This document shows, one piece after another, positions 12,500-23,978 of a stretch of DNA of 33,262 bases (its first letter is position 1; each line of letters begins with the position of its first letter). The stretch comes from Beijerinckiaceae bacterium (lineage in GTDB: Bacteria; Pseudomonadota; Alphaproteobacteria; Rhizobiales; Beijerinckiaceae): assembly GCA_947453155.1 (NCBI GenBank), contig CANGFE010000025.1:1-33262 (forward strand), given 5' to 3'. A model generated the notes under the pieces. It did not search any database. It saw nothing but the letters and a program-made list of their open reading frames with translations, and was not told where the DNA came from. Made by a program: the position numbers and the translations under genes.

Positions 12500-12645
12500 G
12501 AGGAAAGCATCTTGGCTCCGAGCCTGACCGAGAATCCCCTCAGCCACCCCTGCAAATCAAGCCAAGCCGAACGGTCGAGGCTGTTTCGCGCGGATCTTGG
12601 CCCCCGAGAGCTTAAATTGGCGTTCACGCCATGCTAGGAGAGGCC

Positions 12646-14418
12646 ATGACCTCGCCACCTCAAACACAGCCGGACATCCTGCACCCCGCGCCGCAGCGGC
12701 GCGATGCACGGGCCGCCAGCCTTGTACGCCGCCTCAAGGGCCGCTCCATTGTGCTGGTCGGCATTATGGGCTCTGGCAAAACATCCGTCGGCCGCCGCTT
12801 GGCAGCCCGGCTAGGCCTTGATTTCGTCGATGCTGATGCGGCGATTGAAACAGCCGCACGGATGACGATTGCTGAAATCTTCAAGCGTCATGGCGAGACC
12901 TTCTTCCGTGATCGCGAACATCATGTGATTGCGCGCCTCATCACCGAAGGCCAAAAAGTCTTGGCCACGGGTGGCGGCGCTTTCATGCGTGAAGACACGC
13001 GCCTGAAAATTGGCGAAAGCGGTCTCTCCATTTGGCTCAAAGCGGATCATGACGTGCTGATGCGCCGTGTGCGCAAACGCTCGAACCGTCCACTATTGCA
13101 TACGGAAGATCCCGAAGCGACGATGCAAAAACTGATCGACGAGCGCTATCCCATTTATGCGCTCGCTGATTACACGATCCATTCGGGTGATGGCCCGCAT
13201 GATCTCGTCGTCGAACATATACTGGAAGAATTGGAGCGCAGCCTGCCCGCCGATCCCGGAGAGGCCAACATGCCAGCGCCCTCGCCCTCCACAATGGCCG
13301 CACCTCTGGCAATCACCAAAGTGCCGGTGGAATTGGGCGCTCGTCGCTATGACATTTTGATCGGTGCGCATCTGGTTGAAGAAGCAGGCCACCATATTGC
13401 CAAACTCTTCCCCGGCTCTGCTTGCACAGTGGTGACAGATCGCCATGTGGCCGAACGCCACCTGCCGTCTCTGGAAGCGGGCCTTGATGGCGCGGGCATT
13501 CGCCATACGCGCTGCATTGTTGAGCCCGGCGAAGCCTCAAAATCCTATGAGGTCTTTTCGCAAGTCTGCGATTCCATCATCGAAGCGCGCATGGAACGGC
13601 GCGATCTCGTCATTGCTTTGGGCGGTGGTGTGATTGGTGATCTGGCAGGCTTTGCCGCCGCTTCCGTACGACGCGGCATGCGCTTTGTGCAGATTCCAAC
13701 AACGCTTCTCTCCCAAGTCGATTCATCTGTCGGCGGCAAGACCGGCATCAATTCCAGACATGGCAAGAATCTGGTTGGCGCTTTTCACCAGCCATCTCTT
13801 GTGTTGGCTGACACAGGCGCACTCGCCACATTGCCGACGCGCGAATTCCGCGCAGGCTATGCGGAAGTCGCCAAATATGGATTGATCGACAATCCGGATT
13901 TCTTCAGCTGGCTTGAGCAAAATTGGCGCGGCGTGTTTGGCGCTGGCCCCGAACTTGTTCACGCCATTGCCACCAGCTGCGCCTCAAAAGCCTCTGTTGT
14001 CATTCGTGATGAGACGGAACAAGGCGACCGCGCGCTGCTCAATCTCGGCCACACATTCGGTCATGCGCTCGAAGCACTAACGCATTTCGATGGTTCACGC
14101 CTTGTGCATGGAGAAGGTGTGGCGATTGGCATGGCCTGCGCTTTCCGCTTCTCGCATAGACTTGGCATTTGTCCGCGCGGAGATATGGAACGGGCCATCG
14201 CGCATCTGGCAAGCGTTGGCTTGCCGACCAAGATTCAAGCCGTGCCCGGCTGGAATCACGATGCCAAAGCGATCCTCGACTCCATGTATCAGGACAAGAA
14301 GGTCGAACGCGGCGCGCTGACTTTCATTCTGGCAAAAGGCATTGGCAAAAGCTTCGTCGCGAAAAATATTCGCGGCGAAGATGTGCTGGCCGTCCTTGAA
14401 GAAGATCTGGCGAATTAA
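12646..14418 (+). CDS. aroKB: Fused shikimate kinase / 3-dehydroquinate synthase (AroK-AroB)
   Basis: One 590-residue open frame carries two shikimate-pathway enzymes. Residues about 30-200 are shikimate kinase: Walker [10 protein letters not shown] (39-47), shikimate-binding [14 protein letters not shown], the ATGGGAF glycine loop (107-113) and the lid arginine in SNRPLL. Residues about 225-590 are 3-dehydroquinate synthase: [11 protein letters not shown] (326-336), the NAD-loop [19 protein letters not shown], and zinc ligands Glu407 (AEVAKYG), His469 (LGHTFGHA) and His488 (VHGEGVAIG). The joining linker (about 201-224) is Pro/Ala/Ser-rich. The start is ATG 12646, with AGGAG five bases upstream; ATG 12631 is less likely. 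In many alphaproteobacteria aroK and aroB are adjacent separate genes. Here there is no stop between them. The two domains catalyse non-consecutive steps (kinase, step 5; synthase, step 2). Confidence 0.93.
13258..13272 (+). promoter_or_regulatory. Internal ribosome binding site and ATG at the AroK-AroB junction
   Basis: GGAGAGGCC at 13258-13266 followed by ATG at 13270 lies in frame at codon 209 of the fused gene, exactly in the inter-domain linker. The same nine bases stand directly before the gene's own ATG at 12646. Initiation here would give a free, full-length 3-dehydroquinate synthase of about 382 residues. Confidence 0.5.
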
Positions 14419-16184: not shown

Positions 16185-16375
16185 GTCACGCCTTGCCAAT
16201 CGGATGGAGAATGCCCCTTCACGACCGATATAGGGGAGGCGCGCGCCCTTGACCAATCGCAGCCGCGCGAGCTTCGCCCCAAGTTTCATGCCGCAAGTGC
16301 GAAAAAAGCTTGGTCTGGAGGGGCTCTCCCTCTAATTTCCTTGATGAGTTCATCAGAGGAGGCGCGTTCGCCGCC

Positions 16376-17077
16376 ATGAGCAAAGTCTATTCTAACGCGA
16401 CCACGGCCCTCGCAGGGCTTTTGAAAGATGGCATGACCATCATGTCGGGCGGCTTTGGCCTCTGCGGCATTCCCGAAAGCCTCATTCTGGCGATCCGCGA
16501 GTCGGGCGCCAAAAACCTGACTGTCATTTCCAACAATGCGGGCGTCGATGGCATCGGGCTTGGGATCCTGTTGGAGACCAAGCAGATCAAGAAAATGATC
16601 TCCTCCTATGTGGGCGAGAACAAGCTCTTCGCACAGCAATTTCTGGGCGGTGAATTGGAGCTGGAATTCAACCCGCAAGGCACTCTGGCCGAGCGCATCC
16701 GCGCCGGCGGGGCGGGCATTCCGGCCTTCTACACCAAGACCGGTGTGGGCACGATCATCGCGGACGGCAAGGAGCTGAAGGAATTCGACGGCGAAACCTA
16801 TGTCATGGAACGCGGGCTTGTGGCCGATTTGGCCGTCGTGCACGCGTGGAAGGGCGATACCGAAGGCAACCTCGTCTATCGGAAAACCGCCCGCAATTTC
16901 AATCCGATGATGGCCACCGCCGGCAAAGTGACAGTGGCCCAGGTAGAGCATCTGGTCGAGCCCGGCCAGATTGATCCCGACCACATCATCACGCCGGGCA
17001 TTTTCGTCCAGCGCATCATCCATGTGCCGGGTGCGGAAAAGCGCATCGAACAGCGCACCACCCGCAAGCGCGCCTGA
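16376..17077 (+). CDS. scoA: 3-oxoacid CoA-transferase subunit A
   Basis: Subunit A of a succinyl-CoA:3-ketoacid CoA-transferase, which activates acetoacetate (or another 3-oxoacid) with CoA from succinyl-CoA. The 233-residue product has the family motif [12 protein letters not shown] near the N-terminus and an [14 protein letters not shown] segment. The ATG at 16376 follows AGAGGAGG at about 16355-16362; the frame opens further upstream but without conservation. It is 14 bases from scoB and clearly co-transcribed with it. PcaI/CatI (3-oxoadipate transferase) are close relatives, so the substrate is a family-level assignment. Confidence 0.92.
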
Positions 17078-17091
17078 GGAGGAGAATTTCC

Positions 17092-17742
17092 ATGGCTTGG
17101 ACCCGTGATGAAATGGCCGCCCGCGCCGCGAAGGAATTGCGTGACGGCTTTTATGTGAACCTGGGCATCGGCATTCCGACGCTGGTTTCGAACTACATTC
17201 CGGCCGGCATGACCGTGCAGCTGCAAAGCGAGAACGGCATGCTGGGCATGGGCCCTTTCCCCTATGAGGGTGAGGAAGATGCCGACCTGATCAATGCCGG
17301 CAAGCAGACGATCACCGAATTGCCCACGACGAGCTATTTCTCGTCAGCCGATTCCTTCGCCATGATCCGCGGCGGCCATATCGACCTGTCGATCCTGGGT
17401 GCGATGGAAGTGGCCGAGAATGGCGATCTGGCCAATTGGATGATCCCCGGCAAAATGGTGAAGGGCATGGGCGGCGCCATGGATCTGGTGGCGGGCGTCA
17501 AAAAGGTCGTCGTGGTCATGGAGCATGTCGCCAAAGATGCGCCCAAGCTCCTCAAAAAATGCTCCCTACCCCTGACCGGTTCGGGTGTGGTCGATATGGT
17601 GATCACCGATCTGGCGGTCTTCAGCATCGATAAGATGGGCAAGAGCGGCATGACCTTGATCGAACTGGCGCCCGGCGTCAGTGTCGATGAAGTGAAAGCC
17701 AAGACTGAAGCCAGCTTCAAAATTGCTGCGGGCCTCGCATAG
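17092..17742 (+). CDS. scoB: 3-oxoacid CoA-transferase subunit B
   Basis: Partner subunit of the preceding gene. The 216-residue product carries the catalytic glutamate in the motif [14 protein letters not shown] (Glu about 47), which forms the glutamyl-CoA thioester intermediate, and a [35 protein letters not shown] region typical of subunit B. A strong Shine-Dalgarno (GAGGAGG) precedes ATG 17092. A good terminator follows at 17774, closing the two-gene operon. It supports use of ketone bodies or turnover of polyhydroxybutyrate-derived acetoacetate. Confidence 0.93.
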
Positions 17743-18216: not shown

Positions 18217-20295
18217 ATGGACGTCTCTATGCTGGACGCCGCCGCCAAAGCCTTCGTCATGCTGATGGATCCCTTCCGCATGTCGTTGCTGTTCCTTGGC
18301 GTGATTATGGGTCTGGTGCTTGGCATTCTGCCGGGCATCGGCGGGCTTGCGGGCACAGCCCTGCTTCTGCCCTTCACCTTCAACATGGACCCTTACGCGG
18401 CCATGGCCCTTCTGCTGGGTCTGGGTGCGACTACGGCGACGGGCGACCCCATCCCGGCCATTCTCTTCGGCGTGCCCGGAGGTGCCGGCTCTGCCGCCAC
18501 CGTCTTGGACGGCCTGCCGATGGCCAAGCGCGGCGAAGCTTCGCGCGCTCTGTCAGCGGCCTATATGTCCTCCATGATGGGCGGCATTTTCGGCGCGGCT
18601 TTGATGGCCGTTCTCTTGCCGATCCTACGTCCAGCGATGCTCTTCATAGGATCACCAGAGCTACTAGCCTTTGCGGTCTTAGGTATCTCCATGGTGGCCG
18701 TGCTTTCGGGCAGCGCGCCACTGCGTGGTCTGTCGGCTGGCTGTATCGGCCTGATGATCTCCATGGTCGGCTCCGACCCGCAGACGGGTACGCTGCGCTG
18801 GACGCTCGACAGTCTCTATCTCTGGGAAGGCGCCCCGCTCGTTCCGATCGTGCTCGGCCTCTTCGCTCTGCCGGAACTCGCTGACCTTGCGATTTCCCGC
18901 CAGTCGATTGCACCGGGCTCCAAACAGCTTGCGACATCGACCTCTGGCATGGTTCAGGGCGCGCGCGATTGCTTCAAACATTGGTGGCTCGTTCTGCGCT
19001 GCTCGTGGCTTGGTGCAACACTCGGCGCGATCCCGGGCATTTCCGGCGCGATCGTCGACTGGCTGGCTTACGGCCATGCGCTCAAGACCGAAAAGGGCGC
19101 AGGCCTGACCTTCGGCAAGGGCGACGTGCGTGGCGTGATTGCCTCTGAGAGCGCGAATAATTCGCGTGAAGGCGGCGCTCTCGTTCCGACCGTGGCCTTC
19201 GGCGTGCCCGGCTCCGCCGGCATGGCGATCTTGCTCGGCGCCTTCCTCATCCACGGTCTCGTTCCGGGACCGGACATGCTGACGAAGAACCTCGACGTCA
19301 CCTATGCAATGGTGTGGTCGGTGGCTCTCGCCAACGTGTTGGGTGCTGGCCTGTGCTACTTGTTCAGTGCGCAATTCGCGCGTCTGGCCACGTTGCGCTA
19401 CACGCTGATCCTTCCCTCGACGCTGGCGATTATTTACATCGGCGCGTTCCAGGGCTCGCGTAACTGGGGTGACCTCTACACATTGCTCATCTTCGGCCTC
19501 TTGGGCTGGGCGATGAAAATGCTGAAGTGGCCGCGTCCGCCGCTGCTCTTAGGCTGCGTGCTCGGTGAGATCGTTGAGCGTTATCTCTTCATCTCGATCC
19601 AGCGTTACGGCGTGGAATGGTTTGCCCGCCCGATCGTCATCATCATCTTTGCTTTCGCGCTGTTTGGTTTGATGCGTCCGTTCTTGCAGGACATCAAAAT
19701 CCATGGCGGTCTGCGTAAAATGATGACGGGCTTCCACTTCAAACCAAACTTCCAGGCTGACCAGCTGTTCTACATCTTCCTGTTCGCCGTTCTCGGCTAC
19801 ATGATGTGGGAAGCCTCACACTGGAACATGCATGCCAAGATCGTGCCGATGATCGTCGGTTCGACAGCGGCTGTCGTCATGTCAGTCAGTCTGTTCAACT
19901 ATCTCTTCCGCAAGCCGGAAGAGCAGGCTGACGTTGGCATGGCTGGCGTGATGACGGAAAAGATCGAGCAGAAGATCCACATGGACCTTGAAGCATCGAC
20001 CGACCACCTTGATACGTGGACGATCCTGCGTCGTGCAGCCATGTTCTTCGGCTGGCTCGTCGCCTTCATGGTCTCCATGGCTGTGATTGGTCTAATCCCG
20101 ACCATTCCGATCTTCGTGGTCGCTTTCATGCGCCTCGAAGAAACGAAGGAACGTTGGTCACTAGTCATTCCACAGGCGGTCATCCTGACGATCTTCGTCT
20201 ATGTCCTCTTCGATCAGCTGCTGACCATTCCGTGGCCGCAGACATTGATCGGCGGCTGGTTCCCGGCGCTGAAGGGTCTCATCCCCTCGGTCTAA
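18217..20295 (+). CDS. Fused TctA-TctB permease of a tripartite tricarboxylate transporter
   Basis: An inner-membrane secondary transporter driven by an ion gradient, working with a TctC binding protein. The product from ATG 18217 is 692 residues, against about 500 for ordinary TctA. Residues 1 to about 500 are TctA, with the family motifs LGILPGIGG (about 35-43), GDPIPAILFGVPG, and ESANNSREGG (about 311-320), and many transmembrane segments. After a cytoplasmic-looking linker, residues about 512-692 contain four more hydrophobic segments in a TctB-like pattern (ADQLFYIFLFAVLGYMMW, KIVPMIVGSTAAVVM, FFGWLVAFMVSMAVIGLIPTI, IPQAVILTIFVYVLFDQLL). So large and small membrane subunits are one chain. 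The substrate is unknown. No tctB is present separately. Confidence 0.88.
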   Translation: MDVSMLDAAAKAFVMLMDPFRMSLLFLGVIMGLVLGILPGIGGLAGTALLLPFTFNMDPYAAMALLLGLGATTATGDPIPAILFGVPGGAGSAATVLDGLPMAKRGEASRALSAAYMSSMMGGIFGAALMAVLLPILRPAMLFIGSPELLAFAVLGISMVAVLSGSAPLRGLSAGCIGLMISMVGSDPQTGTLRWTLDSLYLWEGAPLVPIVLGLFALPELADLAISRQSIAPGSKQLATSTSGMVQGARDCFKHWWLVLRCSWLGATLGAIPGISGAIVDWLAYGHALKTEKGAGLTFGKGDVRGVIASESANNSREGGALVPTVAFGVPGSAGMAILLGAFLIHGLVPGPDMLTKNLDVTYAMVWSVALANVLGAGLCYLFSAQFARLATLRYTLILPSTLAIIYIGAFQGSRNWGDLYTLLIFGLLGWAMKMLKWPRPPLLLGCVLGEIVERYLFISIQRYGVEWFARPIVIIIFAFALFGLMRPFLQDIKIHGGLRKMMTGFHFKPNFQADQLFYIFLFAVLGYMMWEASHWNMHAKIVPMIVGSTAAVVMSVSLFNYLFRKPEEQADVGMAGVMTEKIEQKIHMDLEASTDHLDTWTILRRAAMFFGWLVAFMVSMAVIGLIPTIPIFVVAFMRLEETKERWSLVIPQAVILTIFVYVLFDQLLTIPWPQTLIGGWFPALKGLIPSV

Positions 20296-21424: not shown

Positions 21425-21700
21425 TTAGATGTTCTTCAGGTGCTGAGCGAGGTACTTGTTCATTTCGAACATAGTGACCTGCTTGCGGCCGAACACGGCT
21501 TCGAGCTTGTCATCAGCGAGGATCTCGCGCTTGTTGGCCGGATTCTGCAGCGAGTTGGACTTAATATATTCCCACACCTTGCTGACGACTTCCGAACGCG
21601 GCAGCGGATCATTGCCGACAATCGCGCCAAGCTCCTTCGAGGGCTGCAGGGGCTTCATGAAGGCGCCGCCGGCTTTTCCTTCGGTAGGGGTCTTGGCCAT
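21425..21700 (-). CDS. SWIB/MDM2-domain protein
   Basis: A 91-residue protein that is almost entirely one SWIB domain (about residues 14-90): FMKPLQPSKELGAIVG, PLPRSEVVSKVWEYIKSNSLQNPANKREI, then DDKLEAVFGRKQVTMFEMNKYLAQHL. SWIB is best known from eukaryotic chromatin remodellers (SWI/SNF BAF60) and MDM2, but stand-alone versions are found in chlamydiae, plastids and alphaproteobacteria, where they are thought to be nucleoid- or DNA-associated. The function here is not established. ATG 21700 has GGAG eight bases upstream. It has its own terminator and appears monocistronic. Confidence 0.92.
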   Translation of the reverse strand: MAKTPTEGKAGGAFMKPLQPSKELGAIVGNDPLPRSEVVSKVWEYIKSNSLQNPANKREILADDKLEAVFGRKQVTMFEMNKYLAQHLKNI

Positions 21701-21879: not shown

Positions 21880-22890
21880 TTACTTGGCGAGCTCGACGAC
21901 CTCTTTGGGGGCGCTGACCACCTTGGCCGTGATCTCGGCCAGCTTCTGGTGGGACATGGGCTCAATGGTCAGGTTGAGACGCTTGGCATCGGCCAGGAAG
22001 GCCTCGTCCTTCATCGTCTTCTCAAAGGCCGTGCGCATCATGGCCACGCGATCAGCGGGGACGCCCGGCGGCAGGAAGACGCTGCGACCGAAATCAGATT
22101 CAGCCGACAAGAATTCGGCGACCTGACGATGCACCGGGTCCTTCATGATTTCAGCCAAAGTCGGCACATCCGGCGCGCTGGGTTCGCGCGTGATGGAGGC
22201 GAAGACAATCGGCTTGATGCGGCCATCGGCAATGGCATCCGGCATGGCGAGCTGCACGCTCACCCAGGACGCGCCACGGCCTTCAATTTCACCGCGCTGC
22301 ATGGCGAGGTTCAAATCGGCTGCGCCCTTATAGCCCGTCACGATTTTATATTTCGTACCGAGAAACTTGTTCATCAGATTGGGCACAATATAGGTCGGCG
22401 AACTGGGGCCCGTCGCACCGATAATGACTTCGTTTGTCTTGGCCTCTTCAATTGTCTTGGCTTTCGCAGTGTGCCAGATCGAGAGCATGTTGCGCACGGG
22501 CGCCATATTGCCGAGCCACAACCATTCGCGCGCATCATATTTCGCAAATTGCGGCTGCAAAACTTGGTTGATCACGACGGTCTGCTGCGTCATCGCAATC
22601 GTCGTGCCGTCAGTTGGCATATTGGCGCGCACGGAATTGGCGAGATTGAGACCGCCCGATTCACCACCCGTATATTTGATGATGAATTTTGGTTTTTCGG
22701 GAATGTATTTTGGCATGTGCTCGGCAAGCACCTGCGCATAGGGACCAAACGAGCCACCTGGATCAGAGCCAACAAGGAAAGTAATGTTCTTGCCGCGATA
22801 GAAATCGCTCAAAGCATCCGCATTTGCAGGTACATTTGCGAAGGCGCCAACAAGCAGTGCCGTGCCAAGGAGGCTCGCCGCTTTTTTCAT
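21880..22890 (-). CDS. TctC/Bug-family substrate-binding protein of a tripartite tricarboxylate transporter
   Basis: A periplasmic binding protein of 336 residues with a signal peptide (MKKAASLLGTALLVGAF..., cleavage near ANA-DA about residue 24). The Bug fold is indicated by ITFLVGSDPGGSFGPYAQVLAEHMPKYIP at the N-terminus, YTGGESGGLNLAN, IIGATGPSSPTY, VTGYKGAADLNLAMQRGEIEGRGASW and the C-terminal PPGVPADRVAMMRTAF. Bug proteins bind carboxylates for TctAB-type permeases. Its start overlaps the stop of the upstream dehydrogenase gene by four bases (ATGA), showing translational coupling. The fused permease lies 1.6 kb away on the other strand and could be the partner, but many Bug proteins are orphans. 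Confidence 0.93.
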   Translation of the reverse strand: MKKAASLLGTALLVGAFANVPANADALSDFYRGKNITFLVGSDPGGSFGPYAQVLAEHMPKYIPEKPKFIIKYTGGESGGLNLANSVRANMPTDGTTIAMTQQTVVINQVLQPQFAKYDAREWLWLGNMAPVRNMLSIWHTAKAKTIEEAKTNEVIIGATGPSSPTYIVPNLMNKFLGTKYKIVTGYKGAADLNLAMQRGEIEGRGASWVSVQLAMPDAIADGRIKPIVFASITREPSAPDVPTLAEIMKDPVHRQVAEFLSAESDFGRSVFLPPGVPADRVAMMRTAFEKTMKDEAFLADAKRLNLTIEPMSHQKLAEITAKVVSAPKEVVELAK

Positions 22891-23978
22891 TTTGTTTCTC
22901 CCATATCCGGCACGACGACATGATAGGCCTGTGCCACTTGAACCAATTCATCCCAAACTTTTGCGCCGATCTTGATGCCCTGTGTGTGCGCTTGTTTCAA
23001 TGCACGCGCACCGCGTTCACCGGGCAGTCGCAATTCTTCAACACCCTCAATGCGCGGCAGAGCCTTGATCGCAGCAGAGAGGGCATCGATATCGCTGGTG
23101 AAATCTGCGGGCTCACGCAAGCGTGCAATATCAATGACGATCATCGTGGCGCTCTGCCCATGCCCCTTCTTGCCGAGCGTCAGCATGGGCGACAAGAGAG
23201 GCGCGCCCGCCAAGACGCTGGTGAAGATTTCTGTCAGCAAGGCAAAGCCTGATCCCTTCGGTCCGCCCAAAGGCAGAAGCGTTTCTGCGTTCGCCGCTTC
23301 CGTTGCGGGATGCCCCTCTGCGTCCAGCGCCCAACCAACGGGAAGCGTTTCTTTGTCGCGACGCGCCTGTTTCAAACGGCCGTTTGAAATCTGACTTGCC
23401 GCCATATCGAGCAAGACCACACCTTCGGGTCCACCGGGAACGGCCATCGCAAGAGGCGCTGTCGATGCGCTGGCAATGCGCGCGCCTTCATAGGCCATCA
23501 GAGGCGGGCCTGCGGCGAAGGCGATAGCGGCAAAACCATTGCGTGCCGCTTGTTCAGCATAAAATCCAATGGCGCCCGCATGGGTCGCGCCGCTCATGAC
23601 GCCAAAACCCACGCCGAATTGGCGCGCGCGCTCTTGGGCGCCATCCAGCAGCTGCATCATGGCAATGGGTCCGGCTGCCCCTTGCGCATCGAGCGAGAAG
23701 AGCGCGCCAAAATCCGCCTGCAGCCGCGGGACGGCCGCTGTCTTCATCGCGCCCTTATCAATCATGCCGAAATAATGGGGGATGCGGCTCACCCCATGGG
23801 TGTCGCTGCCGCGCATATCTGCCCAAACGAGGACGCGGGCAATTTTTCCGGCGTTTTCGGCGCTCATGCCGCGGGCCACAAAAAGGCGCTGCACGAAATC
23901 GCTCAAAGCTGCGTCGCTGATCTTCGGAGCTTGGGCCCCCAATGCCGTGATCCTTCCGCCCTTCGGAGCGCCGGACAT
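22887..23978 (-). CDS. Ldh-family (malate/L-lactate dehydrogenase-like) NAD(P)-dependent oxidoreductase
   Basis: A 363-residue member of the LdhA/YlbC/ComC family, which oxidises 2-hydroxyacids such as malate, ureidoglycolate, lactate or sulfolactate and is unrelated to classic Rossmann lactate dehydrogenase. The hallmark is ADMRGSDTHGVSRIPHY (about residues 52-68, containing the catalytic His). Further family segments are GATHAGAIGFYAEQAARNG and the GGPKGSGFALLTEIFTSVLAG region. It is the first gene of a two-gene unit with the TctC-type binding protein and overlaps it by four bases. This suggests that the imported solute or a close derivative is the substrate of the enzyme. The exact substrate is unknown. 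Confidence 0.9.
   Translation of the reverse strand: MSGAPKGGRITALGAQAPKISDAALSDFVQRLFVARGMSAENAGKIARVLVWADMRGSDTHGVSRIPHYFGMIDKGAMKTAAVPRLQADFGALFSLDAQGAAGPIAMMQLLDGAQERARQFGVGFGVMSGATHAGAIGFYAEQAARNGFAAIAFAAGPPLMAYEGARIASASTAPLAMAVPGGPEGVVLLDMAASQISNGRLKQARRDKETLPVGWALDAEGHPATEAANAETLLPLGGPKGSGFALLTEIFTSVLAGAPLLSPMLTLGKKGHGQSATMIVIDIARLREPADFTSDIDALSAAIKALPRIEGVEELRLPGERGARALKQAHTQGIKIGAKVWDELVQVAQAYHVVVPDMGETK

Follow-up and report, generated by a model that had tools for sequence, protein, structure and literature searches.

A TctA-TctB permease in one chain from a Beijerinckiaceae bacterium, and a probable route to it through reversed gene order

TTT transporters are widespread. As far as the accessible text of a review goes, these tripartite tricarboxylate transporters are secondary uptake systems in which TctC delivers the substrate and TctA carries it, and the role of TctB was unknown as of 2018 (PMC5812351). 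The window, by which we mean the whole stretch of 33,262 nucleotides analyzed here, holds a single open frame in which both membrane subunits appear to be joined. This raises the question of whether one chain makes up the complete membrane part of such a transporter and, if so, how the fusion came about. The frame and its parts are:

18217..20295, + strand: tctAB, 692-residue fused TctA-TctB permease (open frame; Pfam TctA and TctB; GAGAGG before the ATG)
18286..19551, + strand: TctA domain, the translocation core, at residues 24-445 (PF01970)
19687..19764, + strand: linker, residues 491-516, net positive, without a hydrophobic segment (family-averaged hydropathy and charge)
19774..20238, + strand: TctB domain with four hydrophobic segments, at residues 520-674 (PF07331; hydropathy)

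The frame translates into 692 residues with no internal stop, and GAGAGG lies 5' of the ATG at 18217 with a spacing of 8 bases. Pfam finds both families above their cut-offs in this one frame, as the first-pass annotation had proposed: PF01970 (TctA) scores 405.3 bits (cut-off 28.9, E 3.3e-121) over model positions 3-423 of 423, and PF07331 (TctB) scores 49.5 bits (cut-off 29.1, E 6.5e-13) over model positions 5-137 of 137. In profile searches of the assembly, the TctA domain reached 407.4 bits and the TctB domain 54.2 bits; the C-terminal piece compared alone with PF07331 scored 54.5 bits. At E values up to 1, the whole protein matched TctA and TctB only, and neither DctQ nor DctM of the TRAP transporters. 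The matched residues lie close to the spans predicted for them (about 1-430 for TctA and about 515-670 for TctB); the accompanying description of the first 500 residues as TctA was right in placing TctA at the N-terminus and slightly long, as the match stops at residue 445. The proposed charged linker and the four C-terminal hydrophobic segments in the TctB pattern were both recovered, the former with a family-average net charge of about +3.7 and the latter at residues 517-535, 542-560, 617-635 and 647-665 in a simple family-averaged hydropathy profile. In each of the two fused groups, a crude hydropathy count gave 13 segments for TctA, an odd number. Seven in-frame ATG, GTG or TTG codons occur at residues 485-530, and a Shine-Dalgarno-like site lies upstream of none of them, so separate translation of TctB is not suggested; an internal start for TctB was rejected on this ground and because residue 502 is methionine in only 23 of 67 rows. 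The TctB loop between segments 2 and 3 also carries a short conserved motif at residues 586-591 (19972-19989, + strand), in which 59 of 67 rows have aspartate at residue 590 (6 have a gap there) and 37 of 67 have histidine at residue 588.

The fused proteins fall into a tight and a loose tier. At E 0.01 or better, 14 of the 16 tight-tier members, including the window protein, match PF07331, and only 7 of the 26 loose-tier members do so, the other 19 TctB ends being missed by Pfam. In profile-profile comparison, the tight C-terminal profile matched stand-alone TctB with 97.8% probability, and the loose-tier C-terminal profile matched the tight profile with 99.0% and stand-alone TctB with 97.6%; as controls, four pieces of TctA reached no more than 0.5% against the tight, 0.4% against the loose and 27.2% against the stand-alone TctB profile. 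The reading of the C-terminal part as a lineage-specific hydrophobic tail of TctA, with a stand-alone TctB encoded elsewhere to complete the system, could draw on the poor conservation of TctB, the few PF07331 matches in the loose tier and the incompleteness of the genome, but it is highly improbable in view of the tight-tier matches, the profile-profile links of 97.6-99.0% and the lack of any unpaired tctB match in the assembly. The alternative that the first-pass annotation had itself named, an extended TctA tail with no TctB match, is largely refuted by these comparisons, and they support the reading of the window protein as a single chain made of TctA and TctB.

The assembly comprises 2.79 Mb in 120 contigs and is 83.6% complete, the window being contig C25. 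Profile searches returned six TctA and six TctB matches, which form two fused pairs, on C25 and C15 (61-62% identical), and four pairs of adjacent separate genes, in the order tctB-tctA on C10, C87 and C12 and in the order tctA-tctB, with a 4-base ATGA overlap, on C22. All six TctB matches are fused to a tctA or lie beside their own, and the earlier claim that the window system has no separate tctB holds for this incomplete assembly. Within 6 kb of the second fused permease (L220, G000:C15:20854-34908) we found no TctC-like gene, and downstream of it lies a protein that resembles the zinc ABC permease AztB, with a score of 253.9 bits that falls short of the cut-off (280).

Scanning named genomes yielded 50 loci, which the record titles assign to Alphaproteobacteria in 49 cases and to Betaproteobacteria in one. 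Matches run from residue 18 or earlier to residue 686 or later in 45 of them, one of which (L087) is interrupted by stops within the match and has no complete fused frame; in the remaining five loci (L057, L079, L086, L089 and L091) the match reaches the end of a contig or comes close to it. These near-full-length matches in 45 of 50 related loci argue that the fusion is not a product of chance or of an assembly join. A profile of 17 fused proteins at E 1e-150 found relatives in at least 30 of 385 class genomes and at least 15 of 398 phylum genomes, the window genome included, these being lower bounds since at most three and two candidates per genome, respectively, were scored, and some of the matches being fragments or frames of about 500 residues. 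Of 58 sampled genomes of the class, 20 carried TctA, and 84 of their 86 matches were near full length; a script placed 70 of the 84 behind tctB, 4 as unfused with tctB behind them and 7 as fused (in five genomes), with 3 unassigned. Fused TctAB proteins look like an old and fairly common lineage within the family. Three relatives that the fused profile picked up (G270:C1:67873-69498, G360:C1:4008582-4010093 and G435:C1:207316-209043) are interrupted within the match by one or two in-frame stops, which may reflect the end of a gene, gene decay or errors in the sequence. The long frames at L014 and L036 were rejected as fusions, since tctC, tctB and tctA are separate there and the long frame merely runs through; further long frames, lengthened upstream only, were rejected as well.

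The fusion has a published precedent. A TctAB fusion in Paraburkholderia caribensis has been reported, and the accessible text of the report calls such cases rare (Rosa et al. 2018, PMC5812351), to be set against 7 of 84 full-length TctA proteins in our sample of 58 genomes from one class. The homologue from P. caribensis MBA4 aligns with 90% of the query at 52.5% identity, has TctA and then TctB in 668 residues (profile 142.5 bits) and belongs to the fused clade described below, as L221 in starred fused-only sets (16 rows, 100, in the TctB tree). We infer that this is the gene meant by the review, whose accessible text names the species only. Like the window protein, it holds TctA and TctB in one chain; unlike it, it belongs to the Betaproteobacteria. 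Judged by sequence, the window protein is of this already published kind. Plasmid matches among the 40 listed are, where annotated, named 'tripartite tricarboxylate transporter permease'. The following comparisons again draw on the accessible text of PMC5812351. Salmonella TctCBA (TTT, TC 2.A.80) has the same TctA and TctB Pfam families as the window protein, but its genes are separate and ordered tctC-tctB-tctA, whereas the window has one gene with the order reversed and tctC convergent. In slcHFG of Roseovarius nubinhibens and Chromohalobacter salexigens, tctB lies downstream of tctA as in the unfused sisters described here, but the genes are unfused, unlike the window tctAB; our trees were built without those named genes. 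SiaQM of Haemophilus influenzae, a fused DctQM of the TRAP type, likewise holds a small and a large membrane subunit in one chain of a binding-protein-dependent secondary transporter, but its sequences are unrelated, and its small subunit is N-terminal and connected to the large one by an extra helix, whereas the window tctAB has its small subunit at the C-terminus, behind a linker free of hydrophobic segments.

How the single chain might work can be proposed from the topology that the same review text gives for TctA, up to 12 spans with the N-terminus inside (PMC5812351). On this topology, TctA would end in the cytoplasm and TctB would start there, and with both joined ends cytoplasmic a short linker would suffice, with no added helix; the linker is probably cytoplasmic, its side following from this topology and its charge. 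The odd number of segments counted in TctA by hydropathy speaks against this arrangement. A periplasmic TctC would supply the permease with an organic acid, TctA would import the acid with cations, and TctB would act as the fixed 1:1 partner of TctA, a stoichiometry predicted from the presence of both in one chain. As TctB is covalently tied to TctA, one permease chain together with TctC should suffice. A search by sequence found no homologue with a solved structure for the membrane part; a natural one-chain TctAB, being a 1:1 complex, may be easier to express, to solve and to cut apart. The neighboring genes that bear on TctC and on the substrate are:

16310..17077, + strand: 3-oxoacid CoA-transferase subunit A, possibly functionally linked (TIGR02429, 264.7 bits vs 128.5)
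17092..17742, + strand: 3-oxoacid CoA-transferase subunit B, possibly functionally linked (TIGR02428, 323.2 bits vs 243.55)
21880..22890, - strand: tctC, gene for a likely substrate-binding protein, in convergent orientation to tctAB (PF03401)
22887..23978, - strand: Ldh_2-type dehydrogenase just upstream of tctC (PF02615, 300 bits)

The PF03401 match at 21880-22890, on the other strand from tctAB, is weak (28.2 bits vs a cut-off of 27), and this gene is a candidate that probably encodes the TctC partner of the window permease. Several close relatives also have a TctC-like gene near tctAB. Around 47 fused loci, in stretches that were often short, a TctC-like gene was present in 25 and absent from 22; it lies convergent and at most 700 bases downstream in 8 loci and just upstream in 2 (the entry for L063 was centered on another long frame). 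The 22 loci would fit a simple secondary carrier that works alone, without a binding protein, yet TctC genes can be unlinked, and the 25 loci with a TctC-like gene, together with Pacificitalea and Sagittula, where annotated binding-protein genes precede the fused permease, make such a carrier quite unlikely. L055 and L070 each have five TctC-like genes around the fused permease, four and three of which, respectively, are on the same strand as the permease. The CoA-transferase pair lies upstream of tctAB; among the 50 loci, 12 have it next to the fused gene, all of them close relatives (at least 86% identity), and the Ldh_2-type gene matches no NCBIfam equivalog at or above cut-off. The neighbors of the fused permease vary between lineages, and a search for the substrate from context found no Pfam family in more than 4 of 82 neighbor proteins at E 1e-8; our guess is an acid that is activated to a CoA ester.

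As to the origin of the fusion, a TctA-domain tree of 125 rows (215 before rows more than 78% identical were removed) placed 35 of the 36 fused rows in one clade. A careful TctA tree of 67 rows, for which we picked 27 of the 36 fused rows, 36 of the 82 rows with the order tctB-tctA (B-A) and all four with the order tctA-tctB (A-B) and omitted the three unassigned, placed 26 of the 27 fused rows together at 100/99. Just outside this clade lie the four unfused A-B rows (C22 of the host genome, L201, L189 and L205; the false A-B fragment from L087 is not among them), and the split between the fused and A-B rows on one side and the B-A rows and L191 on the other stands at 100/99. Three of the four A-B pairs have a 4-base ATGA overlap (L011, L189 and L205), and in L201 the frames overlap further. 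The fused branch probably grew out of the reversed gene order: tctB-tctA would first have become tctA-tctB, and a small change at the overlap would then have fused the frames. Fission of a fused ancestor could also have given the A-B pairs, which is the less parsimonious account.

The TctB parts were compared with a profile of fused TctB only. The stand-alone TctB of C22 scored 57 bits, and 89 of the 102 B-A entries (duplicates included) gave no match, the best reaching 32 bits. Among the other A-B pairs, L189 scored 20 bits and L201 18 bits, no better than the best B-A entry, and L205 gave no match; in Pfam, the TctB of L205 scores only 16.3 bits. A TctB tree of 64 rows is similar in outline to the TctA tree, with 4 of its 61 branches starred: 25 fused rows and two A-B rows, which are the only two of the four A-B pairs that it covers, group at 86, and the fused row L114 lies outside this group with three B-A rows. 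L222 and L224 entered this tree as short fragments, of which one was dropped automatically and the other has a meaningless position. Because the A-B scores are mixed and the TctB tree is weakly resolved, the main support for the order-first route comes from the TctA tree.

The exception in both TctA trees is L191, which is fused, yet its TctA lies among the B-A rows; its TctB goes with the B-A rows, weakly, in the TctB tree. A single fusion for all fused permeases, with L191 misplaced, would agree with the clade that takes in 35 of the 36 fused rows, with the long branch of L191 (0.94-0.97) and with its TctB match of 26.1 bits, below the cut-off of 29.1. Holding all 27 fused rows together was, on the other hand, rejected in an AU test (p 0.0009, for a question posed after the first tree), and this result and the placement of L191 among B-A rows make a single fusion unlikely. 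L191 looks like an independent fusion by its sequence, and the idea that the fusion happened once survives as one main origin, with L191 apparently apart from it.

We give a probability of roughly 0.9 to the explanation as a whole, namely that the window protein is a complete TTT membrane part in one chain, fed by TctC, which would have arisen by reversal of the gene order and then fusion. With some reserve, we also favor a wider account, in which fused TctAB would be an ancient, Pseudomonadota-wide TTT branch where a swap of tctA and tctB gave an intermediate with the ATGA overlap, of the kind still present on C22, and then at least two fusions, with TctA first in all examined, many of them hidden by Pfam missing the TctB end. 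In the open-licence literature searched, we found no earlier account of the order-first route, of a second fusion or of the size of the fused group. What is added here is this route, the apparent second fusion and the group size, and the tree gives a testable path from swapped gene order to fusion.

Elsewhere in the window, another fusion, of shikimate kinase (SKI) and 3-dehydroquinate synthase, occupies one frame of 595 residues at 12631-14418 (+ strand) and is kept in close relatives; AroK-AroB fusions are known already. A stand-alone SWIB/MDM2-domain protein of 91 residues, at 21425-21700 on the - strand, is likewise kept in close relatives.
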